From the NCBI GenBank assembly GCA_018398815.1, contig CM031614.1:44134882-44198881 (forward strand): a stretch of DNA of 64,000 nt, in the 5' to 3' direction. A program made the position numbers and the translations under genes. Source of the DNA: Conus ventricosus. Taxonomy: Eukaryota > Mollusca > Gastropoda > Neogastropoda > Conidae. The notes under the pieces are model-generated. The model ran no database searches. It was not told the DNA's origin and saw only the letters and a program-made list of their open reading frames with translations. The stretch's first letter is position 1. The number at the start of each line of letters is the position of its first letter. Of this stretch, positions 17,203-64,000 are shown in pieces.

Positions 17203-17307
17203 TTAGGCGGTGTCGATGTCTTTCATGACTCGCAGAACCACTTCCTCCTGGAAGGGAAGCGCAACGCACTGAACGGACACAGGAAGCCCCACAGAGCCGT
17301 CCGAGTC
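17203..17307 (-). CDS. FAAH: FAAH-like terminal exon with stop codon
   Basis: The acceptor CCTTCTGTCGCAG precedes a phase-0 frame reading GSVGLPVSVQCVALPFQEEV, then VLRVMKDIDTA and TAA (17205-17203). This is the conserved FAAH C-terminal block (VGLPVAVQCVALP...QEE in vertebrates). The C-terminal tail is shorter than in human, which continues about 10 residues past this point. The acceptor and the first ~10 exon bases are repeated many times in the array immediately upstream. Confidence 0.93.
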   Translation of the reverse strand, partial: DSDGSVGLPVSVQCVALPFQEEVVLRVMKDIDTA

Positions 17308-18325
17308 CTGCGACAGAAGGCACCAAAGTATGTACATACACGCTATCATGTTAGGCACCAAGTATGCACACACACACACTATCCCTCTGAGTCTTGTGCA
17401 CACACACACACACTACCCCTCTGAGTCTTGTGCACACACACACACACTATCCCTCCGAGTCCTGCGACACAAGGCACCACGTATGCACACACACATTATC
17501 CCTCCGAATCCTCCGACACAAAGCACCAAGTATGTACACACACACTTTCCCTCCTAGTCCTGCGACAGAAGGTACCAAGTATGTACACACACACTATCCC
17601 TCCAAGTCCTGCGACAGAAGGTACCAAGTATGTACACACACACTATCTCTCCGAGTCCTGCGACAGAAGGTACCAAGTATGTACACACACACACACTATC
17701 CCTCCAAGTCCTGCGACAGAAGGTACCAAGTATGTACACACACACACTATCCCTCCGAGTCCTGCGGCAGAAGGTACCAAGTATGTACACACACACTATC
17801 CCTCCGAGTCCTGCGACACAAGGCACCACGTATGCACACACACATTATCCCTCTGAGTCCTCCGACACAAAGCACCACATATGCACACACACATTATCCC
17901 TCTTGAGTCCTCAGACACAAAGCACCAAGTATGTACACACACACACACACACACACTATCCCTCTGAGTCCTGCGCCACAAGGTACCAAGTATGTCACAC
18001 ACCCCCATCATGTTAGGCACCAAGTATGCACACACACACACACTATCCCTCTGAGTCCTGCGACAGAAGGCACCAAGTAAGTACACACACACTCACGTTA
18101 GGCACCAAGTATGTACACACACACTATCATGTCAGGAACCAAGTATATACACACAACTATCCCTATGAGTCATGCGACACAAGACACCAAATAAGTACAC
18201 ACACACTATCATGTTAGACACCAAGTATGTACACACAAACTATCATGTTGGGCACCAAGTATGTACACGCACACTATCCCTCCGAGTCCTGCGACACAAG
18301 GCACCAAGTATGTACACACACACTA

Positions 18326-18358
<33 letters not shown>

Positions 18359-21353
18359 AGTCCTGCGACACAAAGCACCAAGTATGTACACACACACTAT
18401 CATGTTAGGCACCAAGTATGTACATACACACTATCATGTTGGGCACCAAATATGTACACACACACTGCCCCTCTGAGTCCTGCGACACATGTCACCAAGT
18501 ATGTACACACACTAATCATGTTCATGCTACATTGATGCAGTAACAATATATAGCACACTATGTCAGGAACAAAACAACATGCCATAGTACTGACATGTCA
18601 CACAGCACATGTGTCCTTGCCAAACTTGCAGTTGCTGTTGTCACGAGTTTTGTCACGAGGCCTACGACGATTGACCCCTCTAGGGTGTGGAATTGTTCAT
18701 TGGTTGTCGTCGTTTATTGTCGTATATCCGTCCCTTAATGTGGTTTGTGGTGTGGTTGCAACCTTTGGTGTAGTTCAGCTCAGGTTAGGTTTTACTTCTC
18801 TCTCTCTCTCTCTAATTCCACTGCCCGTGCAATTCATCCTGCAGGTTCACGGGGGCTGGTATCTTTTTCTTGTACTGGCTGTCTCTATCGGCCTCTCACC
18901 TGTCTTTTCACCTGCCGCACGTGCAAGGTTCCTCTTAGGCTTGAGGTATTCTCACCGTGACGTAGCGTGGCATGTTGGCCGCCATCGTTTAGGCAGGTTT
19001 TCTCTTCACTCGACGGAAGATGTCTCTGGGAGCGCCTGCTCCGGTCTTGGTTCTTCACCTTATCGTCGAAGTACAGTCGGTACCTTCATTTCCTACAGTC
19101 GGCCTGTAGAGAGAGACATCACTTCATCTTTTTCCGCATCTGCGCTGTCTCGACCGGACAGAGGCAGAGAGAGTCATTTGACCCGCCTCTTCTGGGTCAC
19201 CCACGGTAGCTGGTAAGCATCAGTTTCGTGGTTTATTTGTTGTGTTTTTTTTTTTGATGTTAGCCGCTAATTCTTCTCTTTTGCGCAATTTGTTTTTGGT
19301 TTCAAAATTATAAAAGAAATATTGTTTGAGACCACTTTTCTGTTAATTCAATCTTTAACCTGCCAGTCAAAATATATCTAAAAGTCTTTCTCCTTTTTAT
19401 GCATTTGGTGATGCGGTATCGGCGGGAAGGGAGAGAACCTGTGATTCAGGTTGTACTTGCTTGGTCTCGCTCGTCCGCCCCTGTCACAATTGCCGGCTCA
19501 CATTTTTTCGCCACCGTCTGTTTTGTGTTGCAAGGAGAACGAGTTTTATGTTCGCGAGCGTGCGTACGCATGATTAGTCGTTTGGATGCGTGGTGGAAAT
19601 TTGTGTTATTTTGAAATGTTGCCATAAAATGTGGGGATAATTGTGCCATTGAATTATTATTATTTGCAAATGTGGTGGCAGATGTAAAGCCATGGTTGCT
19701 TTATTAGTTCAATTCCTAAGAAAGGAAAATGTTAAACGTGAGTGAGAGAAGGATGAAGATAATTCATATTGTGTTTTATAGCCTGTTAATTTAATGCAGT
19801 CTCTTACCTGCTTCGTATGAGAAGACTTTAAACGAACATTCCTGATTGGTTGGTTTTGCCCGCGTTATGCTCAGGTCTTGTTGACTGATGTTGTGGTGTA
19901 TTTAGTAGACCCTCCCTCGCCCATCATGCGAGTGGCTGTTAAGGTTTAACAGCATGTTCAGACAGTACTGACTGCGGGTTCCAGTGCCCGTCTTTCTACT
20001 TTCCCCAGTTACCTTTTCCCTCCTCCCGGGGACATCACCCGAGCACGCACTGGTTGGGCCACGCACTGGTTGGACTGCCCACTGGTTGGTAACGCACGCT
20101 GGTTGGGACCGCGCACTGGTTGGTAACGCGCACTGGTTGGGCCACGCACTGGTTGGGACTGCCCACTGGTTGGTAACGCACGCTGGTTGGGACCGCGCAC
20201 TGGTTGGTAACGCGCACTGGTTGGGGCCACGCACTGGTTGAGGCCACGTACTGGTGGAAAAGCCCGTGGACTTGGCTGGAGGTCCTGATCCCCGTCTGGG
20301 ACCTCCGGCGACGGCGCCCCGTCCCCCGGGACGCGCTCTCCAACCGTCTGTTTGTGCGTGTCAAGGGTGTCGGCCTTGAACAACTCTCTCAGAACCGAAC
20401 CGGTTTGGGGCACCCAGTGCGACAGGGTGTTCCCATAGACTTGAAGAGGCAGGAGTGTGAGGGCACTGCATGACAGGGAAAGGGATGGGTGCTGGAATTA
20501 TTTATTTATGATTATGATTGTGTATGCCATGTATTGAGATGTTTGATTGTGATTGTGCATGTTGTGCGGTTCGAATGCTTGATTGTGATTGTGCATGTGC
20601 GTGCGTTGAAATATTTATTTGTGATTGCGTGTGTTGATGTGAATAAATGGGGTGTTTGTATCGTAATCCTTCTGTGTGGTCTCTTGCGAGGCGTGTGAGG
20701 TCAGTCACTCCCTTCGCTCCCACCAAAAACCGATCCTGTCAGGGCTGACCTCCAGGGGTCGCTCGTGACATTTGTGGGGCTCGTCCGGGATGTGAAGGGC
20801 TCTGACTGTCTCTCTCGTTCGCGAGTACCTGTTCAGTTCTGTCTGTTTTGTATATGTTTAGTCAGTTTGTCGTGTTTGTTTCGTGGGTGGTTGGCTGGGT
20901 GACTCTAGCGTGTAGGGAGTCTTGGTGGCCTGAAGGAACATCCAGTGTGACCGGGAGTTCGAAGTGAGACCAGGGGAGTCGACCGCGTCCAGACCTCCTT
21001 CCGCCGGGTGCCTCACGCAGATTCGGCCGTAAGTCTTTCCTTTCTGTTGCCGCTCAGTCTTCCATTCCTGTTTGTAGTTAGCCAGTTTTTTTTTACCGGT
21101 GATTATTGAGTATAGGTGGGTGTATCGGACGTTAGTGTCACTTTTCTCTCTCCGGATTCCGTCTGCCAGTTTGTTTGGGTTTTTTTTTCGGCCAGCCCCA
21201 CCGCACTGTTGCTCGTGCTGTGGAGCGCGGTGTTTGCCAGAGTGGGGCAGCCGGACATAGTTTTTTTTTTTTTTTTTTCGGTGAGCCCCACCGCACTGTT
21301 GCTCGTGCGTGGAGCCGCGTGTTTGCCAGAGTGGGAGCAGCCGAACTTGTCCC

Positions 21354-21390
<37 letters not shown>

Positions 21391-27300: not shown

Positions 27301-27826
27301 AACTGACGCAGAGTAGAGAAAGAGGAAGAGACAGAGACAGAAAGGGAGGGACAGAGAGAAGGAAAACAAATGTTCGTTCAACATGGGTAGTGCATTAAGC
27401 ATAACTATTACGCCTTTTTTTCTCCCTATATCACACTGCCTTGGACTGGAAGAAAGGCAAAGACTGCTAAACAGAAACAGAGAGACAAAACACAGACAGA
27501 CAGACAGAACATTGCTGAGAAACTGGGGACAGAGAAACAAAGAGACAGAGAGAAGGCAAGATGGAGCTTCAGCCTCAGAGAAAGCCCCACTTGATAAGAA
27601 ATTTCTCAAAGGCCCGTGTGGGAGGATACACGGCAGGGTCCCTCAGACTTTTGGACGTCTGCTCAAGACTGTGCTCACCGGCATCATGCCAGCAGGGTAG
27701 TTCACAGATTGTACAGAAGGGGGTTCCCCTGTCCCGCTGTAGGACACACACACACACACACACACACACCACCACCATTATTACCCGATTCGTGATGTGG
27801 AGAAAGCTCAAGGCATGGAAGCTGGT

Positions 27827-27863
<37 letters not shown>

Positions 27864-50974: not shown

Positions 50975-51701
50975 GACAGAAAAACCAACGTGCACACGAC
51001 CTCATCCCTGAAGAACAGCGGAGCAACCGTGGGGTCCAGGAGGTGCATCCTTGGAGTGAAGAGTTCCTGCGTTAGCTGTATCAGGCTGTCCATGTCCCTC
51101 GCCATAGGCCCACCGTCACACGAACTGCGCATTAATTCACTGATGTACAATTCAAAGCATGACACCATCATGTACATGGAAAACAGCAACACCGGTGTTC
51201 AAAACTTGACAGTCACACAAACACAGCAGATGCTGATGTACAAATGCATAGCACAGTTACATACAGACTGCAAAAATAAACACTGATGCACAAAGAATGC
51301 AAACTGGCAACGTCCTACTAACACACACATAAACTCTGCAGCCATAAGTGTTAATGTACAGAGCATTGCATCATCTCTCTCTCTCTGTGTCTGTCTCTCA
51401 CACACAGACACAGACATACACACAGACACACACACTTATTCACACACACACAAATACACACACACACACATACACATACTAAGGCACACATTGATATACA
51501 GAACATCATGACCGTCTCAAACACACACACACACACACACACAACACACACACACTAAAGTAGACTCTGACATACAAAATGTGATTGTTACACACACATA
51601 CATACTAAAGTAGACTTTGACATACAAATGTGATTGTTACACACACACACACACACACATACACACGCACTAAAGTAGACTTTGACATATAAATGTGATT
51701 G

Positions 51702-51737
<36 letters not shown>

Positions 51738-52625
51738 GTAGACTTTGACATACAAATGTGATCGTTACATACATACACACTAAAGTAGACTTTGACATAC
51801 AAAACATGATCGTTACACCCCCACCCCCACCCCCACACGCTCGCGCGTGCACGCGCGCACACACACACACACACCTGAGCAGTGTGCTGACTTTGATACT
51901 GATGTGTGAAATATTGACCATCTGTCACACAGATACACATAACACACACACTTGTGATGATATGCACTCAAGTATAAAGCATGACACTCATGTATATACT
52001 GCAGAAATTCACACTGATATACAAAACATGTCACAGTCTCACAAAGATGCAGTAAATACACAAGGCATAGTATTGTCACATACACAAGAATGATACCCAA
52101 AAAAAAAAACCACATAATTTTTTCTTCTATATTTTTTTCTAAGATTTGAACCTTAAGACATTAAAATGTGACACTTGCACCCACGCATTACTGTCCACTG
52201 TGAAGTGTATAGTGGCTTTTTTTCCTTTTTTTTTTTATTGAGCAACTCTTATAACAATGCTTGAAGGAATTTTTCAGAAAATGGTCACTAGTTGGTTGGC
52301 TTAAAATCAAAAGTCAATTCTCTTTCACTTATAGTTCACATCATGAACAAAACCATGGTATCACCAGAAAGGCCAAAGTCTCAGGCAATCTTAAACAAAT
52401 CCATAATTTCATGCATGTCTCTAATCTCAACTGGAAGCTTAAATATGTCGTTAATTTTTCTTATTTTTCGATGAGCCTCACAATGTTGAATGTCTTATGA
52501 GAATATATTGCAGCTGTACTAATTTATTACTACACAGCCACTACAGGTAGTAAAAGAAAGCAACAAAACTAACATCATTAGGACATTAAAAAAGGGTCAG
52601 GCATGGCAAAAAATAAGTACTGAGC

Positions 52626-52669
<44 letters not shown>

Positions 52670-55600
52670 TGCACACTGTTTCAGCAAAATTAGGTATAAC
52701 AAACACACAAAAAAGACAGAAAGAAAGAAAGAAAAATCGTAAGCATTGGCAAGTGCCTTAAAACTTTTAAGAAGCAGGATGTTGTGGACATGCACAACAT
52801 CAAGCAGTTGATCCATGAGGGAGTGACGAACACAACACAATACATCCAAACAGACACTGCCAAGGGAATAGGCACAGCCTACGGACCTCTATAAGGGAGC
52901 TTTCACTCTGTACAATATTTTCTTGCGGGATAAACCAGGGATGCTTGAACAAGTGCAAGATTGTCTTACCTAGATTCTGACCAGTTCCTAAGGGGCAAAA
53001 TCCTCTATTTCTGAAAGCAGAAAAGCCAAGCAGGGTAACAGAAACTTATGGAATACATACATCCATCCAACTCAGATAGGAACATCAGTTGGACGAGTAA
53101 TAAACGAGAAAATGGAAGACAAATGCAGTCTTGACCAGCATGAAGCAAGCAGAGGTTGGTATTAAGTCACATGGGAGCAGAGGTGAGCATTAAAATATTT
53201 TGGGCGACCTTGAGGAAAGGATCAGAGATCATGAAGAAAGATCCACTGACCACAGGGAAAAGTCCTGGTGCCAGAGGGAACAGACTGCAACACAGGATCC
53301 TCTTCAGAGGGCACGAAAGATCCTGCGGTGAAAGTTTGGCCGTTTGTGAAGTTGTACTGGTGTCACCTGTCACTGGAACAGCCATGAGTGGGCTTTGGAA
53401 CATGTGCAGCAGTTGCTTAAAAAATGGCGGCGTTTTTCATTGGCGGGCTCTGTTGTCATGAAATAAGGGCTGGTGCACCCATGGGGATGCTTCCATGGAG
53501 GTTCTGTTGTGTCCCATTCAGTGGCCATCTTGCAATGGCATCTGCAGGGGGCAGTTATGTCCTTGACATCTCAACAGAAAGCCCTGTGTATAAGTGCACC
53601 CTATGTCAGCACAGCGCAGCCTTCCAAGGGTAGTGCAGGACTGCTCCCAGCTGACTGATTCAGCAGTTAAGTCCAGTACTTCTCTGGGTCCCACTGGCAC
53701 CTTTGGGTGTACCTTTTTCGTTTCTTTTTATTAAGGGAGAAGAGGCGAACGTTAAAATGCAATAAACAACAAACCTGATATTCATCCACAGAAAAACCGA
53801 CGGGAGGGAGCAGGACAAGGGGAAGAATGAGAAGTGAGAACTGAAAAAAGACACAAATCCTGCCACAACCTGACAAATAAGATGAAGACAAACAGGGGTG
53901 GGATCACTGCTGGCTTAACTACAGGGCAGCGCTGCAGACAGCAACAGACAGAACGGGCAGAAGGCGGAGAGTGAAGTTATGCTGGTAGGTGAATGTAGAG
54001 TATAAATGAATGTATCCCTCTTCTCACCTTCAAATACCATGTTGTAAAGGCAGACTCTTCGAAAACTGACATAACAACTTTGCCAGATAAAAAAAAGAAA
54101 CAACCTTGCAAAAGACCTACTTCTGCTTGCCATTAATTTTCAATCCAATTTCAAATGCACTTTGCATCATTATACTGTAAAAGTTTTTTTTCCTCCAACA
54201 GTTTTTGTTTGTCATTTTTCAAATTGAGTGTCAAAATAATGTTAGGTACATCTAAAAATAATAAAAACTGACTGCTGCGGCTGAATCCAGCAAAGAATGA
54301 GCCCGGACGTGGCTGAATACCAGAAAGCCGGAATAAATGGCATGAAGCAACACCACTGTGAGAGCACAGAAAATGAAAACACCAAACAGCACAATATAAA
54401 AATTTTAAAAAAGGAAACACTGGCAGAAAACCGCTGAACAGCAGAAAACCGGCTCAGCTGGGCATAAACCACACAAACATTTCCACTCATTTCTTACCCA
54501 GGGTTTGTCCCATAGCAAGAGGCACTTGTCCCTTGTTTCTGAAAGGACAAAGCAGTGTCAGCTATTTCAACGCACACCACAGGACAGAGACACTCCACTC
54601 TGGGTCTGCTGCTGCTCTGTCAGCCACTGCCCCAACTGCCTGGCAGTGTTTCAAGAAATGCTCCCTGAAAGCACCAGCAGACACTGACGCAGGACACTTC
54701 ATAAAGAAACTTACGACACAGAAGATACCCTGATTATCACAATGACCTTCATTCATCACCCTCTGACATACTTCTTTTCCTTGACTTGATAATGACCTTC
54801 ATTCATCACCCTCTGACATACTTCTTTTCCTAGACTTGACTGCTTTCTTGTACTTAGGCAAACCATGACAAGCGAGAAATACGGGAGATTTACTGATACT
54901 GAAAAAAAGAAGGGAGGAAGTGATGGCACTGGGGACATGGAAAGGGGAGGAAGGGGGGTCAGAGGGGAAAGGTTGTGGAGTAGAACATAAGGGGAAGGAG
55001 GGACGGGGTTAGGTTGACGGAAGGGGGAGGAGGATGGTAAGATACGGGAGGGGGAAGGGAGGACTGAGGGGACAGATGGGGGGAGGAGGATGGTAAGATA
55101 CGGGAAGGGAGGAATGAGATGGGGGGAGGGTGCAGAGGGGTGACTGAGGGGCTGAGGACTGGGGGAAGAGGGACAGGGGAGCACAGAGGGGGAGGGGGAA
55201 GGCGAGTTCACATTAAATCAATGACATAATATCTAACGTATTGATTTCCTTTAGGCTTATAAACTTAAAAACTTAGCTTTGCTGAGGCCACCAGGCATTC
55301 CCCTTACGTTATTGCCCCAGATGTTTGTTTTTGAATGCTACAATATTAGCAATAAGCAGTGCCCCCAAACAAAACATAAAAGGCCATATAGCCAAATAAA
55401 CACTGAAAATAAATTGACACCTACCATCCACTCGGACAGCGTGAACAGTTTCATTACCCATTCACCCCATTACACCGAAAAAGCTGGCATGTTACATATT
55501 CCTCAAGAGAAAAACTCTTAAATATCTTCTTGAACAAAGATAGTAGAAAGGACCACAAAGGCTGAACGACAGTGAACAACGCTAAATCAAACACAAAACA

Positions 55601-58600
55601 AAAACAAAAAAAACAAAAAGTGGAAGAAAATGACAAGCACAGAATTTCCAGAAAGCAAGAATACAATTTATTCTGCAAGATCCGCCATAGTCCCTAAGGG
55701 AGACAAACGCCAACGAGCACAGATGGTAGAGATGGGGAGATGAAGAACTCACAAGAGTTGCCACATGATGAGGATTTTACTGTCAATCATTAACCAGCAT
55801 ACTCATCAATAGCCATGAAAGGGTTAACAGAAGGAGAAACTAATCATGAATTAAAACCAAGGCTGACAACTTCCTTCTACATCTTCCATGGACGCTTTTC
55901 TTCAACACAGGCCCCATACATATGTTGTAATATCAAACAGCGAAACCACAACAACAACGAAAAAAAAGTGAAAGCTTGCCTTCATTTACACTATGCCTAC
56001 ATCAGTCGTGAGGTTAGATTAGATGTTTTGACCATATCAGTCATACAAGCTCTTCAAATCTTGCAGCTGGTAGTACCTATGCAAATTCGTTTTTAACATC
56101 ATGGCATGAATCACAAGCCCAACCTTCACTTTGCTTCGATCCTTTCTTGTCTCGCTCAAAACCTTCGACAATCTATATATGTGCATGGTGGTTGATTCAG
56201 TAACATTCGGGTCCTTACAACAGTTTTGTTAGTCTCAGTCACCAGTGACAGTCAGCCAATGTACATCTGCTTTCAGATTTTTTTCCCCTTTGCAAGAAAT
56301 AGAAAAGTGGATTCTGGGAACACACTACCCTTTTCCATAGCCTCTAAGGATAAAGATGGATGCCAGCTCTACAAAAGACCTGCATGTACACATCTATGAT
56401 ACCAGCGCAGTGCATGCAGCACTTACAGGATTCTGTCCACGGTGGGCTTCAAACCATACACCCCACACATCTGACATGGGATGCGGATGCTGCCGCCGAT
56501 GTCAGACCCAATGCCGATGATGGAGCCACCCCCTCCGATCAATGCCCCCTCACCGCCAGACGACCCCCCTGGTCCACGAAGTGGGTTATGGGGGTTGCAT
56601 GTTCGGCCATAAATGGGGTTGGAGCATGCGTACCTGGAAACAGTCCAGACATATGTGGTAATGCATGTACGAGTTATCTTTTCTTCAAAAAACAATACAA
56701 TTATAAATACTCAATGCACACCTGTCAACAGAAACATTTTTTCACCTTCTTTAAACTTTTACGTCATCAGTTACTAAATTGAATGCATCTAAACTCTTTT
56801 TCACTTTAATTCTTTTTTTTTTCAAACAGTGTAAAGAAATCCTTGCATAAGAATTCGTACTAATCTGAGATGAGGAAAACATTTGAAGAGATAAGTGTTA
56901 AATATCTACATTTTTCATGGGAACAGTCACTGGATAGATTGGTTTCACTTCAAACAGACTGAACTTGCCGACCATATTCGTCAGTTATTGAGTAGGGCTC
57001 TGTGACCTCAGTGTGTGTTCAGCTGACAGCGTCGAACGAGCTAGCCTAGTGTGTACTCTGCACCGCGTGCTGGTGTCCAGTGATGTGAAAGTGAGCACGA
57101 GAGAGAAGCGTGGCCTGCTCGCGGCGTGACACGGTGCAGACGGAAAGGTAGGGGAAGATGAGGGGTGAAATAGAGGGTTGCAGTCCAGCAGGGGGCGTGG
57201 TGGGGAGAGGGGGCGCGTGGTCGTGGACTGGTCAGTCTGCATCGAGTGTGAGCGTCTTGATAGACTTCCAAACTGTTTTACTTTCATTTACAGGTGTAGT
57301 GTGACAATACAAACTTTATTTTCAACTTTTTTGGTGTGTGTTCTTGTTTGGATGTGAAGATGTCGTGGTAAATACATATGTTTTTGATCGTGCAAAAAAA
57401 TCTATCCAAATCTAAAAGCCTAAATACTTTTTTATTATCAAAATTAAAACAAAAGAAGCCCAGATTCAAATTCTTCATTCAATTTCCTTCAAAAATTATA
57501 TAGATTTCATTTTTCTATCTTTTGTAGTTTCTGAGCTAGAATTTTTTGTTAATTATGACCCCCAAATCATGAGATGTCCCTGGTACCTGGGAACACCTTT
57601 GTTTGTACTATTTGTAGGCACTGAACGGGTTAAATATCTACATTTTTCATGGGAACAGTCACTGGATAGATTGGTTTCACTTCAAACACACTGAACCACA
57701 TATATGTGTGTATGGACAGTCACTGGATAGATTGGTTTTACTTCAAGAACATTCAACCACATATTCATGTGTACAGTTTCTTCGATGACACAAACATAGT
57801 GGATGATTTAAGGAAGGAAGAAAAATGACAGTGAGGCTTACGTCATCAAGCCCTGAGGAAAATTGGTGCGGACAAACGGCACAGATCCCAGACTCTTCAA
57901 AAGCTGGACAGAAAGCCATCAACAGACTTTCAGTATGAACAAAAGCTGTACACAAAGCCATCAACAGACTTTCAGCTATGAACAAAAGCTGTACACAAAG
58001 CCATCAACAGACTGTCAGCTATGAACAAAAGCTGTACACAAAGCCATCAACAGACTGTCAGCTATGAACAAAAGCTGTACACAAAGCCATCAACAGACTG
58101 TCAGCTATGAACAAAAGCTGTACACAAAGCCATCAACAGACTGTCAGCTATGAACAAAAGCTGGACAAAAATCCATCAACAGATTGTCATCAATGAACAA
58201 AAGCTGTACACAAAGCCATCAACAGACTTTCAGCTATGAACAAAAGCTGGACACAAAGCCATCAACAGACTGTCATCAATGAACAAAAGCTGCAGCACGG
58301 CTGTTCAGAGCAAGCCACTTAGTTCTGAGAGGCAGGGGAGTTTACAGCTCTCCCACAGCTGCAGAGGCCAAGCCGTGAATGCAGGTCAAGGAAAGGGGTG
58401 TTTTCTGCAGGCTGTTCCCCACCAGCCAGCTAACCGTGCTGTACTCGATCAACTGAATGTCATCTGTGTACAGCTGGTCTGGCAGCAATGTGTTCGGCAT
58501 TGATGAGCGGCCATTACAAATGGGGCTCTTAGTTTGATAATCAGTGGTTGTCATGAAAAATGTAATATATCTGTGCTCTTGAGATGACTGAATAGGCGAA

Positions 58601-59239
58601 TTCCCGACAATTCTTTTAATACCAAACTCGACTAGGTTTATTTTCCTGTAGATAATGTAGATACGGCATGAAAGCTTGTACACAAGAGGTCAGGCGATAT
58701 TCAAACAATGACAACACACACACACACACAATTGTGCAAGAATGACGTCATCACTTTCTGGGAACTTAATTTTCCCTAGTTAACTAGTACACAAGTTTGC
58801 TACATGCCTCTGCTTGGACTACAACAACAAAAATGTTGGGTCAGAAATGTGTAAGGCTTGTTTGTTTGGCCCTATAACTAAGTGTCTCGAATGGGACAGA
58901 AAATAAAGCTGTGGCTGGACAGAAAGCCATCAACAGACTGTCAGCTATGAACAAAAGCTGTACACAAAGCCATCAACAGACTGTCAGCTATGAACAAAAG
59001 CTGTACACAAAGCCATCAACAGACTGTCAGCTATGAACAAAAGCTGTACACAAAGCCATCAACAGACTGTCAGTTATGAACAAAAGCTGGACACAAAGCC
59101 ATCAACAGACTGTCAGCTATGAACAAAAGCTGGACAAAAAATCCATCCATAAATTGTATAGACAAAAGCAAAGGTAGACACACTGCATTTATTACAATAA
59201 TATGACATTATATTTGATCAGAAGTATTCTCAATACAAT

Positions 59240-59284
<45 letters not shown>

Positions 59285-59433
59285 GCACACACACGAGCGC
59301 ACACACACACACACACACACACAATCACACACACTGGAATATAATGTCTTATATCTAAACTCTGGAAAAGTTATAATCAACAACCAAATACATGTGCACA
59401 TACATAGCAAGTGCATACACAAAACACAAACAT

Positions 59434-59480
<47 letters not shown>

Positions 59481-62400: not shown

Positions 62401-63560
62401 TAAAGTTAAGGCTTTTAGGTACAAAGACAGATGAAGGGGCCACAAAGGAAAAAAAAAAAAACCCATGCATGACAGTTAGGCAAAAGGATAAGAGTAAAAC
62501 GAAAATGACCAAAAAACAAAACACTACCAGCACAAAATTTACAGAAAACAGAAACACACACACCCAAACCACGGTATATAACTACTGGGAAACACACAAA
62601 CACAGGCAAAAAACATCACACTCACATAAATGCTCGCTCATGTTCACTCATTTATTCACGCGCATTTTCACACAAAGCACCGACCTGTACAATGTCAGCG
62701 TCTTTGTCCGCCGGCTTGTCCACAAAGTGCGTGAATCCAGCATGACAGTCGTAGCCCTGAAAATGACTCTCACTTCCAGCTTCCAAAACATGCAGCAATC
62801 CTTTCCTTGTGACAAACTCCCCCGCCACCCTTGTCCAGTATTGAACTACCCTCCCTGTGCTGGCAAAAACAGTAAGTGACAATGACAGAGCACAGCCATT
62901 TAACGTACTCTGAACAAGTCAGAGACCCAGGTGCCACTAAACTGAAAACAACGACTCAGACGTTGAAGTACACCATGTGAGCAGTTTTGAAATCAATTCA
63001 AATTGAAGTGACTATGATTTAGATGACTAAGATGTAGTGGATCAGCACTGTCAATGTTTAAATCAATTGTCTGGTCATCCAAGAGAAGGCAAGTGACTGA
63101 CATTGGCCAATCATAGTCTAACATGTCAAAAAATATATGCATATCAAGCTACATCCACTATCAGATTACCTTACAAACTTTGGGGATTTCATGTTTACGG
63201 GTTATTTTTCAGAACAATATCCCAGTTTCGTTAATTTCTCGAATGTTCTAAAAACTGAAAGTATGAGTTTGGTGAAGCTTACCAAAAAACAAGAAAAAGG
63301 AAGAAAAGAAACGTTATGTTAAAACGTAACATTTTGTCTGTGTCTATATAATGTAATATCTGTCTTTATCTGTACTGTCAAAATCTTTTTAAAAAAACTG
63401 TCAACAAAGACAAACTTGTTCTGAGACACTTCCTTTGGTTGTCTATCCTAAAGTAAACTGCACTCACATCTAAAAGCAGACTGTCCTTTATGCTGACTGG
63501 AATGCCATGCAGAGGTCCACGCTGATTCGGCTTCAGCAAATCCAGCTCTACAGCCATCGC
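17203..63560 (-). CDS. FAAH: Fatty-acid amide hydrolase-like gene (14 exons found; 5' end outside the window)
   Basis: This membrane-associated serine hydrolase family breaks down fatty-acid amides such as anandamide, using a Ser-Ser-Lys triad. Visible here are the Lys in GIPVSIKD (exon at 63468), the amidase signature with GGSSGGEGALIGGGGS, and the nucleophile Ser in SDIGGSIR (exon at 56427). The fourteen exons run 63.56 to 17.20 kb in the order of vertebrate FAAH and total about 430 codons, against 579 in human FAAH. The missing parts are the first ~120 residues, including the N-terminal membrane helix (beyond the right edge), and one C-terminal exon of about 31 residues. Codon phases match at every junction once two single-base losses, at about 51110 and 27704, are allowed for. 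Introns carry an LTR retrotransposon, piggyBac-type elements and several minisatellites. It could be a pseudogene, but a live gene with assembly errors is more likely. Confidence 0.9.
17308..18510 (-). repeat. Minisatellite of copied FAAH terminal-exon acceptors
   Basis: The array starts exactly at the intron side of the terminal exon and extends about 1.2 kb. On the minus strand most units read (GT)n, a TACTTGGT[GA]CC block, TTCTGTCGCAG, GACTCGGAGGGATAG, then (GT)n. The real exon has TTCTGTCGCAG|GACTCGGACGG. Unit length varies from about 30 to 60 bp with the CA tract. Some units lose the CAG (for example a TCGGAGGA variant near 17508), and some are an alternative type ending CCTAACATGATAG. 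A C run of about 31 bases lies at 18327-18357. Confidence 0.9.
18639..20770 (+). repeat. 5' LTR (2132 bp)
   Basis: It has TG...CA ends and matches 24443-26587 throughout. It contains a (TC)n tract near 18800, an internal minisatellite at about 20040-20260 and an AATAAA at about 20642. Differences from the 3' LTR are mostly single-base indels, with few substitutions. Confidence 0.92.
20040..20260 (+). repeat. Minisatellite inside the 5' LTR (CACTGGTTGG units)
   Basis: Sub-units of about 17 bp built on CACTGGTTGG or CGCTGGTTGG are organised in a higher-order unit of about 85 bp present about 2.5 times. The same array occurs in the 3' LTR at about 25860-26080. Confidence 0.85.
20772..20790 (+). 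promoter_or_regulatory. Primer-binding site, tRNA-Pro type
   Basis: Directly after the 5' LTR comes TTGTGGGGCTCGTCCGGGAT. It matches the complement of the 3' end of tRNA-Pro as used by many retroelements, with one G fewer in the G run. Confidence 0.8.
21181..21345 (+). repeat. Two tandem copies of a ~100-bp unit in the LTR-element leader
   Basis: Both copies contain CCCCACCGCACTGTTGCTCG and GTTTGCCAGAGTGGG, separated by a long T run, and are followed by a (CA)n tract at about 21355-21380. Confidence 0.75.
21457..22850 (+). pseudogene. Gag-like region with zinc knuckle
   Basis: From MATSGAGGMATRASKKK at 21457 the frame is broken repeatedly. A coiled-coil-like stretch (repeated EALRREE-type units) spans about 21870-22140. 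Then come KLPEFRPSEDIDMF and a segment with YADMQLALRKRFHLTPETYR, the usual Gag core of Gypsy-like elements. A zinc knuckle CFLCGRPGHIGK lies near 22805-22845, with its last Cys disturbed by a local indel or substitution. This would form the particle shell and bind RNA. Confidence 0.75.
22960..23290 (+). pseudogene. Retropepsin-like protease region
   Basis: The segment RDSGASTIFVDKDLV carries the D-S/T-G-A active-site motif of retroviral-type aspartic proteases. Downstream GVTTRAKAKKQEQE resembles the linker after protease in Gypsy polyproteins. The frame is interrupted several times between them. Confidence 0.7.
23540..23960 (+). pseudogene. Integrase zinc-binding domain and start of catalytic core
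   Basis: The frame has HDSPMAGHMGSKRTLERVRQ, then FFWPGMNSQVRQYCRSCDVC, the H-H-C-C zinc-binding module of integrases. Next come YILVVVDYA (first catalytic Asp) and, after frame breaks, VAEAHWQIWTRTGVP. The later catalytic residues are not recognisable. Confidence 0.75.
24443..26587 (+). repeat. 3' LTR (2145 bp)
   Basis: It matches the 5' LTR from TGTCACGAG to CGTGACA, is preceded by a polypurine tract and is followed by the GCTGT target duplication. Confidence 0.92.
26593..27678 (-). other. FAAH-like intron; GA-rich tract; weak exon candidate
   Basis: This is mostly unique intron DNA, with a (GA)n-rich tract at about 27248-27560. A minus-strand stretch at about 27100-27225 reads VVTSIELEKDKADLKID after a weak acceptor (CTGAACAG). 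It sits where the missing FAAH exon (human VTTVTAEDE...) should be, but the match is poor and there is no good donor. Confidence 0.3.
27679..27736 (-). CDS. FAAH: FAAH-like exon (NYPAGMMP) with a one-base loss
   Basis: The acceptor GTCCTACAG is followed by a frame giving GQGNPLLYNL; one base is then missing at about 27703-27706, and the other frame continues NYPAGMMP to a donor CCG|GTGAGC. Vertebrate FAAH has LYNCLDFPAGVVP here, so both halves align. A different acceptor 7 bases downstream would give an open frame without the loss, but it destroys the LLYN match. With the base counted, exon phase fits both neighbours (phase 1 in, phase 0 out). Confidence 0.8.
27737..28130. other. CA microsatellite and poly-G tract within intron
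   Basis: (CA)n lies at about 27744-27770 and a G run at 27827-27862, followed by purine-rich DNA. No gene was seen. Confidence 0.6.
28440..28880 (+). pseudogene. LINE ORF2 C-terminal remnant
   Basis: The frame reads YYRKVRDCIPLFYSGSVIWN then ELPSFFPP, resembling the common LINE C-terminal motif (R...F...G..lWN-x-LP). Another frame continues with LEPIFSMATEITFF as the usual K-x-hLF tail would. It is highly degraded, and its limits are approximate. Confidence 0.45.
28881..29406. other. FAAH-like intron, no gene seen
   Basis: AT-rich DNA with a G-rich tract at 29333-29380. A block near 29195 (TTTCAACCTCTTAGGTCTTC then TTCAGGC) resembles termini of some retroelements, but nothing else supports one. 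Confidence 0.4.
29407..29517 (-). CDS. FAAH: FAAH-like exon (EAWKKQKLDALICPG)
   Basis: The acceptor TTTTTTTTCCTCAG is followed by YKAEFLEAWKKQKLDALICP then GLPFPAVTAGLEDNTL and the donor GTAAGG. It aligns with the human YRKTVIAQWRALDLDVVLTP block. It is entered needing one base from the preceding exon and leaves with one base (phase 1), which fits the 27.7-kb exon. Confidence 0.92.
29518..29956. other. FAAH-like intron, no gene seen
   Basis: Unique AT-rich DNA without recognised features. Confidence 0.4.
29961..30495. mobile_element. 535-bp foldback element with ~230-bp inverted arms
   Basis: The ends are TGTGACGGTACAAAGTGTCC and its inverse, with a possible 4-bp target duplication GGCG (29957-29960, 30496-30499). 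The two arms pair over roughly 230 bp each around a short AT-rich centre near 30240. Inside each arm the word AAAGTGTCCGCAG and its inverse alternate several times, so each arm can also fold on itself. No coding capacity, so it must be moved by another transposase. Confidence 0.8.
30500..30993. other. FAAH-like intron with CA and CT microsatellites
   Basis: ACGC/ACAC tracts at about 30705-30760, (CTCT)n at about 30777-30815 and (CA)n at about 30880-30930. No gene was seen. Confidence 0.55.
30994..31037 (-). CDS. FAAH: FAAH-like small exon (KIVDWWHLEDKIK)
   Basis: The acceptor CTCTGTCACCAG opens a frame completed by the previous exon's AG (Arg), then KIVDWWHLEDKIK. Human has ...KLWELQHEIE at this position. 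Phase matching needs the donor GTT G|GTCATT at 30994, adding V; a GTTGGT donor 4 bases earlier would leave the next exon out of frame. The exon is 44 bp. Confidence 0.75.
31038..33158. other. FAAH-like intron; poly-C, poly-G and GT tracts, no gene
   Basis: C runs lie at about 31619-31645 and 31764-31786, (GT)n at about 32010-32115 and a G-rich tract at 32117-32142. The rest is AT-rich unique DNA with T runs. Confidence 0.55.
33159..33205 (-). CDS. FAAH: FAAH-like small exon (DPPLGRMGLVLCQLP)
   Basis: The 47-bp exon lies between GTGCTGGTTTCCCAG and CCCAG|GTAAGATC. Phase 0 in and phase 2 out fit both neighbours. It aligns with the human segment KPLLPRLSAFLSNM. Homology is modest, but splice signals, phase and position agree. 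Confidence 0.75.
33206..34080. other. FAAH-like intron, no gene seen
   Basis: Unique DNA with a short GT tract near 33440. Nothing was recognised. Confidence 0.4.
34085..34243 (-). mobile_element. tRNA-derived SINE fragment (minus orientation)
   Basis: On the minus strand the head reads CCGGTGGCTCAGTGATAAGA (A-box-like), followed about 30 bp later by TGTGAGTTCGCATCTTGC (B-box-like). This spacing is that of a tRNA promoter. The body continues past GGCGAAACC. The 3' limit is uncertain. Confidence 0.6.
34330..34700 (-). repeat. Minisatellite with acceptor-like units (~80 bp, five copies)
   Basis: On the minus strand each unit reads AGACAGCAGAAATCCAGTGT ... GTACTGGTTGTTTGTTATAT then TTCAG. The pyrimidine-rich TTTGTTATATTTCAG is a good acceptor consensus. 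It lies in the intron downstream of the exon at 34775. I could not match the unit to any exon in the window. Confidence 0.8.
34775..34874 (-). CDS. FAAH: FAAH-like exon (SYYMGKLPLFMKYVM)
   Basis: The acceptor TTACATCTGCAG begins with a G completing ATG (Met). The exon continues KDDVLDDCVSFSYYMGKLPL and FMKYVMAKLIGLL to CTG|GTGAGT. It matches the human GDLVSILKLPQWLKGLLAF region. The 100-bp length and phases fit both neighbours. Confidence 0.93.
34875..35563. other. FAAH-like intron; minus-strand ORF-rich patch of unknown origin
   Basis: At 35200-35560 two minus-strand frames are open for 64-78 codons, with non-repetitive composition (for example ILRSHDTALGQRLANISRDR). It may be a decayed mobile-element ORF. 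I recognise no family. Confidence 0.3.
35564..35790. repeat. Tandem duplication, two copies of about 113 bp
   Basis: The copies share ACCCAGCACATTAAAGATAT, GCTGAAAAATGTCAATAAC and GACTTTAAATACAA. Confidence 0.8.
35967..36064 (-). CDS. FAAH: FAAH-like exon (VMPFEPPRVHDAVYDLF)
   Basis: The acceptor TTTTTGTGACAG starts GTC ATG CCT, giving VMPFEPPRVHDAVYDLFIQA then CFGDDGEDSDQY and AT|GTTAGT. It joins the 47.4-kb exon's ...GHK in register with human GHTLVPFLPSNIPHA. The 98-bp length and phases match. Confidence 0.93.
36065..37477. other. FAAH-like intron with CACTC/CA microsatellite; no gene seen
   Basis: A (CACG)n/(CACT)n/(CA)n compound microsatellite spans about 36583-36710. The remainder is unique intron DNA. 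Confidence 0.5.
37480..37650 (+). mobile_element. SINE, left part, split by a TTAA element
   Basis: This carries a tRNA-like stretch with B-box-like GGGTTCAAACCACACATGGG and the SINE body TTGGTACCCAGTTTGGCTCA. It stops at CTGCCGTCCA before TTAA. The continuation GCCATCCCCAGAACAC is found at 41995. Confidence 0.6.
38339..39919 (+). mobile_element. Nested hAT-like element B (1581 bp, 6-bp target duplication AAACAT)
   Basis: Inverted ends CAGGGATGAAAAC are flanked by AAACAT (38333-38338 and 39920-39925). It carries a small plus-strand zinc-finger ORF, T/C-rich and CA-rich low-complexity DNA at about 39100-39310, and two G runs. Confidence 0.8.
38539..38886 (+). pseudogene. Zinc-finger N-terminal ORF of a transposon
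   Basis: MASIHSESLPLVSANKTKK starts at 38539. After a one-base break near 38645-38655 the frame reads VADAIKKHDKDGEFELFC then EPCQKRV and HIERPSHQQK, a C-x2-C ... H-x(5)-H finger like those at the start of hAT-type transposases. It ends at a stop at 38884-38886 with no catalytic domain, so it is at most a DNA-binding fragment. Confidence 0.55.
40103..40320. repeat. 56-bp tandem repeat, four near-identical copies
   Basis: Units start at 40103, 40159, 40215 and 40271, each beginning CCATGGGTTACTGTACACCC and containing ACGGCGTACGGCGAGGGGTT. They lie in the host TTAA element and share ACCCACGGCGTAC-type words with its subterminal palindromes, so they are probable transposase- or host-factor-binding repeats (inference). 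Confidence 0.9.
40331..41926 (-). mobile_element. Nested hAT-like element C (1596 bp, 6-bp target duplication AGCATG)
   Basis: Inverted ends CAGACCTGCCAACC are flanked by AGCATG (40325-40330 and 41927-41932). The minus strand encodes the N-terminal part of a hAT-type transposase. Confidence 0.85.
40985..41652 (-). pseudogene. hAT-type transposase, N-terminal part only
   Basis: The minus-strand frame starts MSKRGVESFGQDAKKKKLG and runs through FPCIRPSAKGVNCARC, C-E-S-D-F and a DVKRHLESRKH finger. Then come EALVAGFFVEHNIALSAANH, a SDSEIAKQLKSGRTKT segment and, past one stop near 41160, FVLGTDGSQE (first acidic catalytic position of hAT enzymes) and a FFPGAVRYLKNDTIPTELM stretch. It then runs into a G tract and the element end. 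The rest of the RNase-H-like core and the dimerisation region are missing, so this copy cannot be autonomous. Confidence 0.8.
41995..42060 (+). mobile_element. SINE, right part, after the TTAA element
   Basis: It begins GCCATCCCCAGAACACAAAC and ends at the TTAA of the next element, so the same SINE hosts two TTAA insertions 66 bp apart. Confidence 0.55.
42061..43176 (+). mobile_element. TTAA-flanked piggyBac derivative, internally deleted (1.1 kb)
   Basis: TTAA at 42061-42064 and 43173-43176, with inverted ends CCCTCTT[AG]TA. It contains only the N-terminal part of a piggyBac-like ORF, so it is non-autonomous. Confidence 0.85.
42340..42870 (+). pseudogene. piggyBac transposase N-terminal fragment
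   Basis: It starts MAAFASATNNDEMVDYSQEE with an acidic stretch (DNESDIEVGSGAEEDGEVQ) and continues VPLAALQTKWRHATHG, then a FQEPTGLAHSLPDTATPLVF segment. After a frameshift, DETNRYARQKQ matches the T-N-x-Y-A block seen upstream of the catalytic core. No DDD catalytic residues are present. Confidence 0.7.
43304..43392 (-). CDS. Orphan exon-like segment in a FAAH intron
   Basis: It is bounded by the acceptor CGTCTTTGGGTTTTCAG and a modest donor CCAG|GTTTCT. The 89 bases are open as QMLFQVMGNKVDVATWSEWK then DFAGPSPLQ. It is not part of FAAH, since flanking FAAH exons join directly. The pattern weakly recalls the start of Rap-GAP-type domains (FLG-x(6)-GW-x(3)-GGLD). It could be a pseudo-exon or an exon from another gene. 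Confidence 0.25.
43393..44590. other. FAAH-like intron, no gene seen
   Basis: Unique AT-rich intron DNA. Confidence 0.4.
44600..44890. repeat. Tandem repeat, ~112-bp unit, about 2.6 copies
   Basis: Units share CTGGTCTATCTCCCAAAGAA, CAATTCATTTACCAAAATTC and AACTTTAGTCTATAGTCTCA. The third copy is more diverged. Confidence 0.85.
45173..45519. mobile_element. MITE with CAGGGTTCATACAGG inverted ends (347 bp)
   Basis: The 15-bp terminal inverted repeat CAGGGTTCATACAGG is exact at both ends, flanked by the 5-bp direct repeat TATTT. It has no coding capacity. CAGGG-type ends suggest hAT mobilisation, although hAT duplications are normally 8 bp. Confidence 0.82.
45520..47428. other. FAAH-like intron; GT and CA microsatellites; G-rich tract
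   Basis: (GT)n at about 45723-45795, (CA)n at about 46020-46048 and 46326-46352, and a purine/G-rich tract at about 46985-47055. No gene was seen. Confidence 0.5.
47429..47554 (-). CDS. FAAH: FAAH-like exon (GPLRVGFYTAIEGVTPHPA)
   Basis: The acceptor TTTGTGTGTACAG starts TTG TTT GAG. The exon reads LFEKKGPLRVGFYTAIEGV then TPHPACVRAVLEAKATLERK and GHK to AAG|GTAAAG. It matches human QPLRVGYYETDNYTMPSPAMRR and following residues. It is 126 bp, phase 0 at both ends. Confidence 0.95.
47555..47825 (-). repeat. Minisatellite of copied acceptors of the 47.4-kb exon
   Basis: About five units of roughly 59 bp. On the minus strand each reads TTTGTGTGTACAG|TTGTTTGAAAATAT then ATGGTACAAAATATGGTTCA. 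The real junction is TTTGTGTGTACAG|TTGTTTGAGAAG, so the acceptor and nine exon bases are repeated. The last unit is degraded. Confidence 0.92.
48000..48395 (-). repeat. 27-bp minisatellite (about 14 copies)
   Basis: Plus-strand unit AGTCAGATTCCTGTGAGTTC plus ATGTCAA, with later units using AAGTCAA. On the minus strand each unit contains GAACTCACAG|GAATCTGAC, acceptor-like but with a weak pyrimidine tract. It is open as S-Q-I-P-V-S-S-C-Q repeats on the plus strand, with no evidence of translation. Confidence 0.9.
48396..49125. other. FAAH-like intron; CA microsatellite, C run
   Basis: (CA)n lies at about 48821-48850 and a C-rich tract at about 48947-48970. No gene was seen. Confidence 0.5.
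49127..49855 (-). repeat. 53-bp minisatellite with paired acceptor- and donor-like sites
   Basis: About eight regular 53-bp units, then six diverged ones. On the minus strand a unit reads CTGCTGGTTTTCCAG|GAATC then TT|GTAAGTGAAAGG: an acceptor-like site, 7 bases, then a near-consensus donor. Plus-strand unit CCAGCAGGGATTTATTTACA. No exon source was identified in the window. Confidence 0.9.
49968..50497 (+). mobile_element. tRNA-derived SINE with (ATT)n tail
   Basis: The head carries the A box TAGCCCAGTGGTAGAGCG and the B box GGGTTCGAACCT at tRNA-like spacing, then the body shared with 13394-13672. The 3' end has TGTAAAGCGCTTAGAGCTTG ... GGCGCTATATAAG and then (ATT)n. The insert between boxes and the lack of a full cloverleaf argue against a functional tRNA gene. 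It lies in a FAAH intron, opposite in orientation. Confidence 0.85.
50574..50975. repeat. 400-bp (CA)n microsatellite next to a splice donor
   Basis: An interrupted (CA)n tract; on the minus (gene) strand it is (GT)n beginning about 27 bp after the donor of the exon at 51001-51124. The long His/Thr and Cys/Val frames in it are artefacts. Confidence 0.95.
51001..51124 (-). CDS. FAAH: FAAH-like exon (PMARDMDSL) with a one-base loss
   Basis: It begins TT after GCGCAG, completing GTT from the 41-bp exon, and reads VRVTVG. One G is then missing in the run at 51109-51111, and the frame resumes PMARDMDSLIQLTQELFTPR then MHLLDPTVAPLFFRDE. Human has EAVRLSVGPMARDVESL and FRLDPTVPPLPFREE, so both parts align. 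The donor is GAG|GTCGTG. Confidence 0.88.
51130..52090. repeat. Degenerate minisatellite of ~45-60 bp units with CA tracts
   Basis: Recurring blocks such as CACTGATGTACAA, GACTTTGACATACAAATGTG and CATGACA(CC), separated by (CA)n, extend from 6 bp beyond the 51.1-kb exon to about 52.09 kb. The acceptor itself is not visibly copied. Confidence 0.65.
52091..52969. other. FAAH-like intron; CA microsatellite; plus-strand open patch
   Basis: (CA)n lies at about 52629-52668. At about 52745-52890 a plus-strand frame (KKQDVVDMHNIKQLIHEG) is open and non-repetitive. I recognise no family for it. Confidence 0.35.
52970..53010 (-). CDS. FAAH: FAAH-like 41-bp exon (NRGFCPLGTGQNL)
   Basis: An excellent acceptor (TTTTCTGCTTTCAG) and donor (CTAG|GTAAGAC) bound 41 bases. 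With CT from the previous exon it reads L-NRGFCPLGTGQNL, ending in one base that the next exon completes to give VRVTVG. Human has SGLKGCVYGQEAVRLSVG. The G-Q then V-R alignment and phase agreement make this convincing despite its size. Confidence 0.85.
53011..54735. other. FAAH-like intron, no gene seen
   Basis: Several 60-100 codon frames occur at 53.15-53.65 kb, but none has recognisable motifs or clear splice boundaries. Confidence 0.4.
54738..54840. repeat. Direct tandem duplication, two copies of 50 bp
   Basis: AATGACCTTCATTCATCACC followed by CTCTGACATACTTCTTTTCC is present twice with one or two differences. Confidence 0.85.
54841..56426. other. FAAH-like intron; G-rich GGAGGATGGTAAGATACGGG repeats; no gene
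   Basis: At 54900-55200 the DNA is G/A-rich with short internal repeats. The remainder is unique intron DNA. Confidence 0.5.
56427..56633 (-). CDS. FAAH: FAAH-like exon with the amidase signature and catalytic serines
   Basis: The acceptor GGACTGTTTCCAG completes ACG and then reads YACSNPIYGRTCNPHNPLRG, PGGSSGGEGALIGGGGSI and IGIGSDIGGSIRIPCQM, then CGVYGLKPTVDRI and CT|GTAAGT. In FAAH the second Ser of GGSSGG and the Ser of GGSIR act with the upstream Lys as the catalytic triad; all are conserved. It is 207 bp, the longest exon in the window. Confidence 0.97.
56634..57841. other. FAAH-like intron; 65-bp block repeated 733 bp apart
   Basis: TTAAATATCTACATTTTTCA and the following ~45 bp occur at 56897 and again at 57630; a shorter copy (ACAGTCACTGGATAGATTGG) follows at 57717. 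The DNA between the first two is unrelated, so an old tandem repeat was probably split by an insertion. No gene was seen. Confidence 0.5.
57842..57903 (-). CDS. FAAH: FAAH-like small exon (LLKSLGSVPFVRTNFPQ)
   Basis: The acceptor GGCTTTCTGTCCAG opens CTT TTG AAG, giving LLKSLGSVPFVRTNFPQGLM and AC|GTAAGC. Human has VLKLQGAVPFVHTNVPQSMF. The 62-bp length and phases fit both sides. Confidence 0.95.
57904..58290 (-). repeat. 43-bp minisatellite of copied acceptors of the 57.9-kb exon
   Basis: About nine units. On the minus strand each reads GGCTTTGTGTACAG|CTTTTG then TTCATAGCTGACAGTCTGTT. The real junction is GGCTTTCTGTCCAG|CTTTTGAAG. The array is contiguous with the exon and extends only upstream. 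Plus-strand unit word: GCCATCAACAGACTGTCAGC. Confidence 0.93.
58291..58914. other. Unique intron DNA between two blocks of the same minisatellite
   Basis: A short CA tract lies at about 58713-58730. No gene was seen. Confidence 0.45.
58915..59150 (-). repeat. Second block of the 43-bp acceptor minisatellite
   Basis: Five to six more units of the 57904-58290 array, separated from it by about 620 bp of unique DNA. Confidence 0.9.
59151..59660. repeat. CA microsatellites
   Basis: (CA)n at about 59241-59330 (with CG interruptions) and 59438-59477; the remainder is AT-rich intron. Confidence 0.85.
59666..62289 (+). mobile_element. piggyBac-type transposon (2.6 kb between TTAA sites)
   Basis: TTAA at 59666-59669 and 62286-62289 bracket inverted ends CCCTA. 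The left end has two palindromic blocks (GGCCGATTAGATCGGCC and GGGCCGATCAGGTCGGCCC); the right end has different ones (GGCAGTGTAAACTGCC and TGCCATGCATGGCA). The interior encodes a piggyBac transposase with several frame breaks. It lies in a FAAH intron in opposite orientation. Confidence 0.93.
59914..61735 (+). pseudogene. piggyBac transposase with frameshifts
   Basis: It opens MAERGARPG, then an acidic N terminus (GGEEPLEEEEEHGNE, DSDSSEVNESDHVDEGEG). The core has FFLLISRMFHVNDVHQIP, then REIAIDESMIGMKNR (first catalytic Asp), GYHLYTDNFYTKP (second) and NAHMGGVDMSDKK (third). It ends with a Cys-rich region (RDCVVCSDRHG ... HWCPGCEVGCHELC) typical of piggyBac C termini. Frame breaks occur at about 59950, 60040, 60240, 60420, 60785, 60900 and 61590. 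All catalytic Asp are kept, so the copy is either recent and mis-assembled or recently dead. Confidence 0.9.
62290..62684. other. FAAH-like intron, no gene seen
   Basis: A-rich intron DNA. Confidence 0.4.
62685..62756 (-). CDS. FAAH: FAAH-like exon (GYDCHAGFTHFVDKPADKDA)
   Basis: The acceptor GACTCTCATTTTCAG starts GGC TAC GAC and reads GYDCHAGFTHFVDKPADKDA then DIVQ to CAG|GTCGGT. It matches human GHDSTLGLSLNEGVPAECDS. It is 72 bp, phase 0 at both ends. The donor GTCGGT is non-consensus at +3. Confidence 0.93.
62757..63467. other. FAAH-like intron, no gene seen
   Basis: Unique AT-rich DNA. Confidence 0.45.
63468..63560 (-). CDS. FAAH: FAAH-like exon with the catalytic lysine (HGIPVSIKD)
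   Basis: The acceptor CTTACTGCAG starts GCG ATG GCT: AMAVELDLLKPNQRGPLHGI then PVSIKDSLLLD to GAT|GTGAGT. In human, YGVPVSLKE contains catalytic Lys142; the same Lys is residue 25 of this exon. It is 93 bp, phase 0 at both ends. Earlier exons lie beyond the right edge. Confidence 0.95.
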
Positions 63561-64000
63561 CTGCAGTAAGACACACAAACAGTGACCTAAACAAATCCAA
63601 CTCTACAGCCATCGCATGCAGTAAGACACACACACAGTGACCTAAACAAATCCAACTCTACAGCCATCGCCTGCAGTAAGACACACAAACAGTGACCTAA
63701 ACAAATCCAACTCTACACCCATCGCCTGCAGTAAGACACACAGTGACCTAAACAAATCCAACTCTACAGCCATCGCCTGCAGTAAGACACACAAACAGTG
63801 ACCTAAACAAATCCAACTCTACAGCCATCGCCTGCAGTAAGACACACAAACAGTGACCTAAACAAATCCAACTCTACAGCCATCGCCTGCAGTAAGACAC
63901 ACAGTGACCTAAACAAATCCAACTCTACAGCCATTGCCTGCTGTATGACACACAGTGACCTAAACAAATCCAACTCTGCAGCCATTGCCTGCAGTATGAC
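63561..64000 (-). repeat. 51/55-bp minisatellite of copied acceptors plus exon start
   Basis: Eight further copies of the junction follow at intervals of 55, 55, 55, 51, 55, 55, 51 and 51 bp and continue past the window edge. On the minus strand each reads CTTACTGCAG|GCGATGGCTG then TAGAGTTGGATTTG. The real exon has TAGAGCTGGATTTG, so about 24 exon bases are copied. The 4-bp length class is a CA-tract difference (AAAC present or absent). Translated, units read AMAVELDLFRSL. Confidence 0.95.

Follow-up and report, generated by a model that had tools for sequence, protein, structure and literature searches.

Tandem arrays of 3′ splice-site segments in a FAAH-1-like gene of a cone snail resemble the mirage minisatellites of amphioxus

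Minisatellite-like tandem duplications that join the 3′ end of an intron to the 5′ part of the next exon were described as "mirages" in a 2010 paper on amphioxus globin genes (PMC3087553). They were found in the globins BflGb6 and BflGb9, and the same paper cites Adh3 (Canestro et al. 2002) and other amphioxus genes. AG/GT signals occur in many, not all, of the repeats, the arrays show length instability, and RT-PCR suggested that splicing is regular. By that account, mirages lie at both intron-exon boundaries, undergo concerted evolution within a cluster from which the edge copy is excluded, and were proposed as a source of new introns (PMC3087553). Repeats also coincide with splice sites in lancelet PGBD5, where troponin C is cited too (PMC3902484).

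Repeats have been tied to intron change in other settings as well. Intron gain through tandem genomic duplication of exonic AGGT segments has been reviewed (PMC3443670), and tandem repeats within human segmental duplications have been associated with repeat-driven intron changes (PMC2812944). In abalone, intron 3 of a TSSK1-like gene carries a 27-bp minisatellite whose repeat number varies among individuals (PMC6905558).

The window analyzed here is a 64,000-nt stretch of Conus ventricosus DNA (contig CM031614.1). Its minus strand holds, at 17206-64000, a FAAH-1-like (fatty-acid amide hydrolase) amidase gene, of which fourteen coding exons could be placed in the window, the same number as in an earlier reading of the letters by themselves (the sequence-only reading). 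The N-terminal part of the gene lies beyond the window end, and the first exon present aligns from Babylonia residue 143. Exons were placed by tblastn with three gastropod proteins and one further protein, and their edges were fixed by AG/GT and reading phase, two 3′ edges (30996 and 27590) not being clean. In gene order, the exons are as follows.

63468..63560, minus strand: FAAH exon (AMAVELDLLKPNQRGPLHGIPVSIKDSLLLD), acceptor adjoining array 1 (tblastn with FAAH proteins; AG and GT edges)
62685..62756, minus strand: FAAH exon without array (tblastn; AG/GT edges)
57842..57903, minus strand: FAAH exon (LLKSLGSVPFVRTNFPQGLMT), acceptor adjoining array 2 (tblastn; AG/GT edges)
56427..56633, minus strand: FAAH exon without array, containing GGSSGGEGALIG (tblastn; AG/GT edges)
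54498..54538, minus strand: FAAH exon without array (tblastn; AG/GT edges)
51001..51124, minus strand: FAAH exon without array, one apparent 1-bp deletion (tblastn; AG/GT edges)
47429..47554, minus strand: FAAH exon (beginning LFEKKGPLRVGFYTAIEGV), acceptor adjoining array 3 (tblastn; AG/GT edges)
35967..36064, minus strand: FAAH exon without array (tblastn; AG/GT edges)
34775..34874, minus strand: FAAH exon without array (tblastn; AG/GT edges)
33159..33205, minus strand: FAAH exon without array (tblastn; AG/GT edges)
30996..31037, minus strand: FAAH exon without array, 3′ end probably 2 nt too far, with a GT donor at 30997 (tblastn)
29407..29517, minus strand: FAAH exon without array (tblastn; AG/GT edges)
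27590..27736, minus strand: FAAH exon without array, two apparent 1-bp deletions, 3′ end lacking a GT in the present reading (tblastn)
17206..17307, minus strand: last FAAH exon (DSDGSVGLPVSVQCVALPFQEEVVLRVMKDIDTA, then stop), acceptor adjoining array 4 (tblastn; AG edge)

Four exon translations, joined into a 128-residue query, hit FAAH chains in the PDB (best E 1.7e-18). With a 362-residue query of exon pieces, the best named matches were proteins of Nucella lapillus (60%) and Babylonia areolata (57%), among the best 120 of 3936 matches (7998 candidates scored). The predicted product is a FAAH-1-like protein closest to sea-snail proteins, among the matches listed.

Frames seem to change within the exons starting at 51124 and 27736, the frame does not fit at the 29517 acceptor, and the 3′ end at 27590 reads AAG/TGGGG with the GT missing, defects that would suggest a decayed pseudogene. 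Against this, identity to Nucella is 73% over 460 aligned positions, as high as the 69% between Nucella and Babylonia. Sequencing or assembly error is a likelier source of the defects than decay, because the identity to Nucella is as high as that of Babylonia and because most of the defects would be accounted for if a G or C run had been shortened (assessed by eye). As far as its predicted protein tells, the FAAH gene is under normal constraint.

Among the 95 TRF rows in the window, four arrays abut exon starts: 63537-64000 (55-bp unit), 57898-58292 (43 bp), 47547-47827 (59 bp), and 17367-18512 (34 and 49 bp plus longer periods). TRF and a reading of the copies on the minus strand both bear out the central claim of the sequence-only reading, that four of the fourteen exons are preceded by arrays built from their own 3′ splice site. 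The units, 43-59 bp long, consist of the last 31-51 intron bases and the first 6-24 exon bases at the acceptors 63560, 57903, 47554, and 17307. With a slash at the exon start, the minus-strand copies of arrays 1 to 4 read CTTACTGCAG/GCGATGGCTGTAGAG, GTGTACAG/CTTTTG, GTGTACAG/TTGTTTGA, and CTGTCGCAG/GACTCGGA, with 24, 6, 8, and 11 exon bases per unit; the copies of array 4 match the exon at 7-10 of its 11 bases. The arrays and the segment that interrupts one of them are listed here.

63561..64000, minus strand: array 1, ~55-bp unit of 31 intron and 24 exon nt, 8 upstream copies with the AG in 7/8, running off the window end
57904..58292, minus strand: array 2, proximal block, 43-bp unit of 37 intron nt and CTTTTG of the exon, 9 upstream copies
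58293..58913, minus strand: segment of ~620 bp unrelated to array 2 and interrupting it, break at the acceptor CAG/C with CAGC on both sides
58914..59140, minus strand: array 2, distal block, 5.3 copies of the same 43-bp unit, away from the exon
47555..47827, minus strand: array 3, ~59-bp unit of 51 intron nt and TTGTTTGA of the exon (8 nt), 4 upstream acceptor copies
17308..18512, minus strand: array 4, ~49-bp unit of 38 intron and 11 exon nt, 15 upstream AG-bearing copies

The arrays had been said to begin flush with the exon; this needs correcting at 17307, where TRF ends array 4 60 bp short of the exon and the exon-adjacent copy is divergent. Array 4 is also interspersed with 34-bp sub-units lacking the acceptor. 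The ~620-bp segment within array 2 contains no inverted repeats of at least 14 nt and is possibly an insertion, perhaps a mobile element. No short direct repeats could be demonstrated at the breakpoints of the arrays, except for CTTTTG at the upper end of array 2 (by eye).

Identity of the modules to the true exon edge ranged from 0.72 to 0.98 over 35 scored copies, a count that leaves out one further array 1 copy cut by the window end. By array, the values were 0.85-0.98 (n = 7), 0.72-0.93 (n = 9), 0.81-0.95 (n = 4), and 0.78-0.90 (n = 15). In array 1, a C of the exon appears as T in the copies read, and 22-23 of the 24 exon-derived bases match in the seven scored copies. These 24 bases encode AMAVELDL in the exon, corresponding to ALAVELDL in Nucella, and all four exon starts encode residues conserved in the FAAH proteins of Nucella and Babylonia. 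Since the exon is held by its protein, the intron copies probably derive from the exon and not the reverse. The sequence-only reading had likewise traced the units to the exon edge, with growth on the intron side only, and this agrees with the near copies found upstream at four of the 14 acceptors and downstream at none.

The likeness to amphioxus mirages is close, as far as these are described: tandem units span the intron-exon boundary, several genes or introns are affected, and many copies carry splice signals (PMC3087553). The 10-72 bp unit of amphioxus Adh3, as given in that paper, is similar in length to the 43-59 bp units of the snail. As in amphioxus, not all copies retain the signal, the AG being absent from one array 1 copy and from the 34-bp sub-units of array 4. 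The two cases differ in that mirages are reported at both boundaries, whereas the snail arrays, known from one assembled sequence, occur at acceptors only (4/14, against 0/13 donors, where 0.33 arrays are expected). In three of the four arrays, mean copy-to-copy identity is not above copy-to-edge identity. This does not favor strong homogenization, and concerted evolution of the amphioxus type is therefore not clear here.

Intron gain by tandem duplication, as reviewed, also involves duplicated DNA that includes a splice signal, but there the new intron forms inside an exon, whereas the FAAH copies are intronic and are not taken to have produced a new intron (PMC3443670). The abalone TSSK1-like minisatellite is, like the FAAH arrays, a repeat array in a gastropod intron; its description does not mention an exon edge in the unit, unlike the FAAH units (PMC6905558). 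Its 27-bp consensus contains the acceptor-like CTCGCAG. No mollusc case of mirage-type arrays was recognized in the openly licensed papers searched. The claim that no described system forms such arrays does not survive the amphioxus work (PMC3087553; PMC3902484): judged by unit structure, the snail gene adds an instance to an already described class of structure and does not establish a new one. Mirage-type structures are thereby apparently extended from lancelets to molluscs, and would be a wider property of minisatellite-rich animal genomes.

The sequence-only reading also held that the arrays fill introns with competing acceptors, and such decoys are indeed present in the sequence. An AG precedes the exon-start motif in 40 upstream copies (7, 14, 4, and 15 in arrays 1 to 4, the 14 covering both blocks of array 2), and splicing at any one of the 40 would bring either a frameshift or, ahead of the exon end, an in-frame stop. 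The normal protein therefore needs the exon-proximal acceptor, and we infer that normal splicing uses it. The true acceptor has the highest pyrimidine content in array 2 (0.67 versus at most 0.60). In arrays 1, 3, and 4, some upstream copies are as pyrimidine-rich as the true acceptor, and because some copies thus equal the true tract in three of the four arrays, some mis-splicing would be expected. The four array-flanked exons are 93, 62, 126, and 102 nt long and most introns are long; with short exons and mostly long introns, cross-exon pairing of splice sites would be a natural guess for how the acceptor is chosen. Because they line up 4 to 15 near-identical acceptors, these introns are natural test cases for the spliceosome's choice of the right one.

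Exon edges were compared with their surroundings using a 40-nt window over each of 14 acceptors and 13 donors, the donor of the exon starting at 31037 entering 2 nt off its likely place. Within 2500 nt and at 30/40 matches, near copies lay upstream of 4/14 acceptors, downstream of 0/14, and on any side of 0/13 donors; some near copy was found at 11% of 400 random intron points. Three or more copies upstream with none downstream occurred at 1.5% of these points versus 2/14 acceptors. Within 600 nt, upstream-only copies were present at 4/14 acceptors at 28/40 and at 3/14 at both 30/40 and 32/40, with 0/13 donors each time. The corresponding frequency among 6137 control points was 3.1% at 28/40 (binomial P 7.5e-4), and P was 0.007 at 30/40 and 0.006 at 32/40. 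When near copies on either side within 600 nt were counted, the difference was not significant at 28/40 (4/14 acceptors versus 13.3% of the 6137 control intron points, P 0.11), at 30/40 (3/14, P 0.23), or at 32/40 (3/14, P 0.19).

A random-birth model was also applied, in which each of 25 merged arrays (period at least 20, 46.8 kb) starts as one randomly dropped unit. It predicts 0.35 arrays across an acceptor versus the four seen (P 3.7e-4; P 0.005 counting only the three that TRF itself places across one). Restricted to the 15 arrays with at least 2.8 copies, the expectation is 0.20 (P 3.5e-5 for four, 9e-4 for the three placed by TRF). Array 2 entered the count twice, once per block, and two period-17 TRF arrays (20044-20255 and 25864-26075), neither of which touches an exon edge, were left out. 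Acceptors and donors differed with a one-sided Fisher P of 0.057; the absence at donors says little, because there are 13 donors and 0.33 arrays are expected at them. All P values are post hoc and come from one gene chosen as a striking case, so they are flattering, and the array excess at acceptors is suggestive.

We consider it highly probable that the arrays are mirage-type minisatellites, formed when acceptor-spanning segments of the snail FAAH-1-like gene were tandemly duplicated, diverged, and were tolerated on the intron side. At each of four exons, a short segment across the 3′ splice site (the last 31-51 nt of the intron and the first 6-24 nt of the exon) would have been duplicated in tandem, and the duplicates would have multiplied and diverged like ordinary minisatellites, presumably by slippage or unequal exchange. 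Most copies would carry the acceptor AG and its upstream tract, and would do no harm provided that splicing uses the exon-proximal acceptor, the sole frame-preserving one. An intron-side duplicate would be spliced out, whereas an exon-side one would alter the protein, and growth would therefore proceed into the intron and not the exon. The sequence itself shows the four arrays, the origin of their units in the exon edge, growth to one side only, and the price in coding of using any of the 40 AG-bearing copies. Local tandem duplication with minisatellite turnover suffices to produce such arrays. Tandem duplication alone leaves the bias toward acceptors over donors unexplained. Two further readings address why acceptors were affected and are compatible with tandem duplication. 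One is chance: in minisatellite-rich introns a few arrays would start over acceptors, and only those harmless to the exon would survive. The density of arrays fits this, with 21-22 of the 25 merged arrays touching no exon edge, as does the lack of a significant excess of matches on either side (P 0.11). The random-birth expectation of 0.35 and the upstream-only excess over controls (P 7.5e-4 at 28/40, 0.007 at 30/40) count against it, and we regard chance as a doubtful though possible answer.

The other is a process preferring 3′ splice sites, such as a lesion arising during transcription, an R-loop, or repair stalled by spliceosome-bound RNA, that would seed the duplications and leave the genome full of such arrays. 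The sequence-only reading had proposed that one process, seeded at the exon's edge, lies behind all four arrays, and this gains something from the random-birth results, from the 0/13 donors, and from a unit size close to a complete 3′ splice-site module. Against it stand the any-match comparison and a Fisher P of 0.057 with 0.33 donor arrays expected; the case is a single gene seen post hoc, TRF itself places three of the four arrays, amphioxus mirages are reported at both boundaries (PMC3087553), and the units carry no hairpin signal. Such a process seems unlikely to us. Were acceptors the preferred seeding sites genome-wide, this would suggest mutation coupled to splicing or transcription. 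The still broader proposition, that in gastropods, and in lancelets by convergence or a shared mechanism, minisatellites arise preferentially at the complete 3′ splice-site module, with runs of decoys for the spliceosome to skip in thousands of introns and copy-number variation acting on splicing fidelity between individuals, we think improbable. Apart from the question of seeding, false tandem copies at exon edges might have come from long-read assembly. The apparent single-base deletions in coding exons and the 75-G run at 4559 indicate that base quality is perhaps imperfect, but the copies differ by substitutions and indels, the units differ from array to array, sub-units are intermingled, and an unrelated segment divides array 2, patterns that an assembler is unlikely to make; an artefact is very improbable. 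Least credible is a regulatory role, in which use of the decoy acceptors would lead to nonsense-mediated decay and tune FAAH output. That an open in-frame product would come from 0/40 of the upstream AG-bearing copies is consistent with it, but a similar outcome would be expected from random intron sequence, and unit length varies among the arrays.

Seeding by hairpins was considered and set aside, as single-strand DNA folds of the four array modules were not specially stable (z -1.72, -1.27, 0.51, and 1.85) compared with 6 of the 10 array-free acceptors (z -0.40, -1.57, -0.23, -0.94, 1.16, and -0.17). A TG microsatellite directly precedes the array-free acceptor at 27736, and GTGT within 20 nt of the AG is also found in the units of arrays 1-3; short TG runs might aid the seeding of duplications.

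A candidate fifth case at 34329-34694 has five 73-bp copies with an acceptor-like TTATATTTCAG and starts 80 bp past an exon end. Its copies gave no exon match (30-nt flanks) at E ≤ 0.05, and it is taken as a probable ordinary intron array. At 49128-49855, about 11 copies of a 53-bp unit, together with diverged ones, carry a donor-like CTTGTAAGT on the minus strand, with GTAAGT in the unit; no placed exon adjoins them, and the only listed exon-edge match is 16 nt at E 0.027.

An uninterrupted run of 75 G occupies 4559-4633, and further long C or G runs lie at 11995-12053, 18327-18357, and 27827-27862. Plus-strand reading frames at 60433-61624, within a FAAH intron, look by eye like a piggyBac-type transposase, and a frame at 42328 looks, also by eye, like the start of a similar one.
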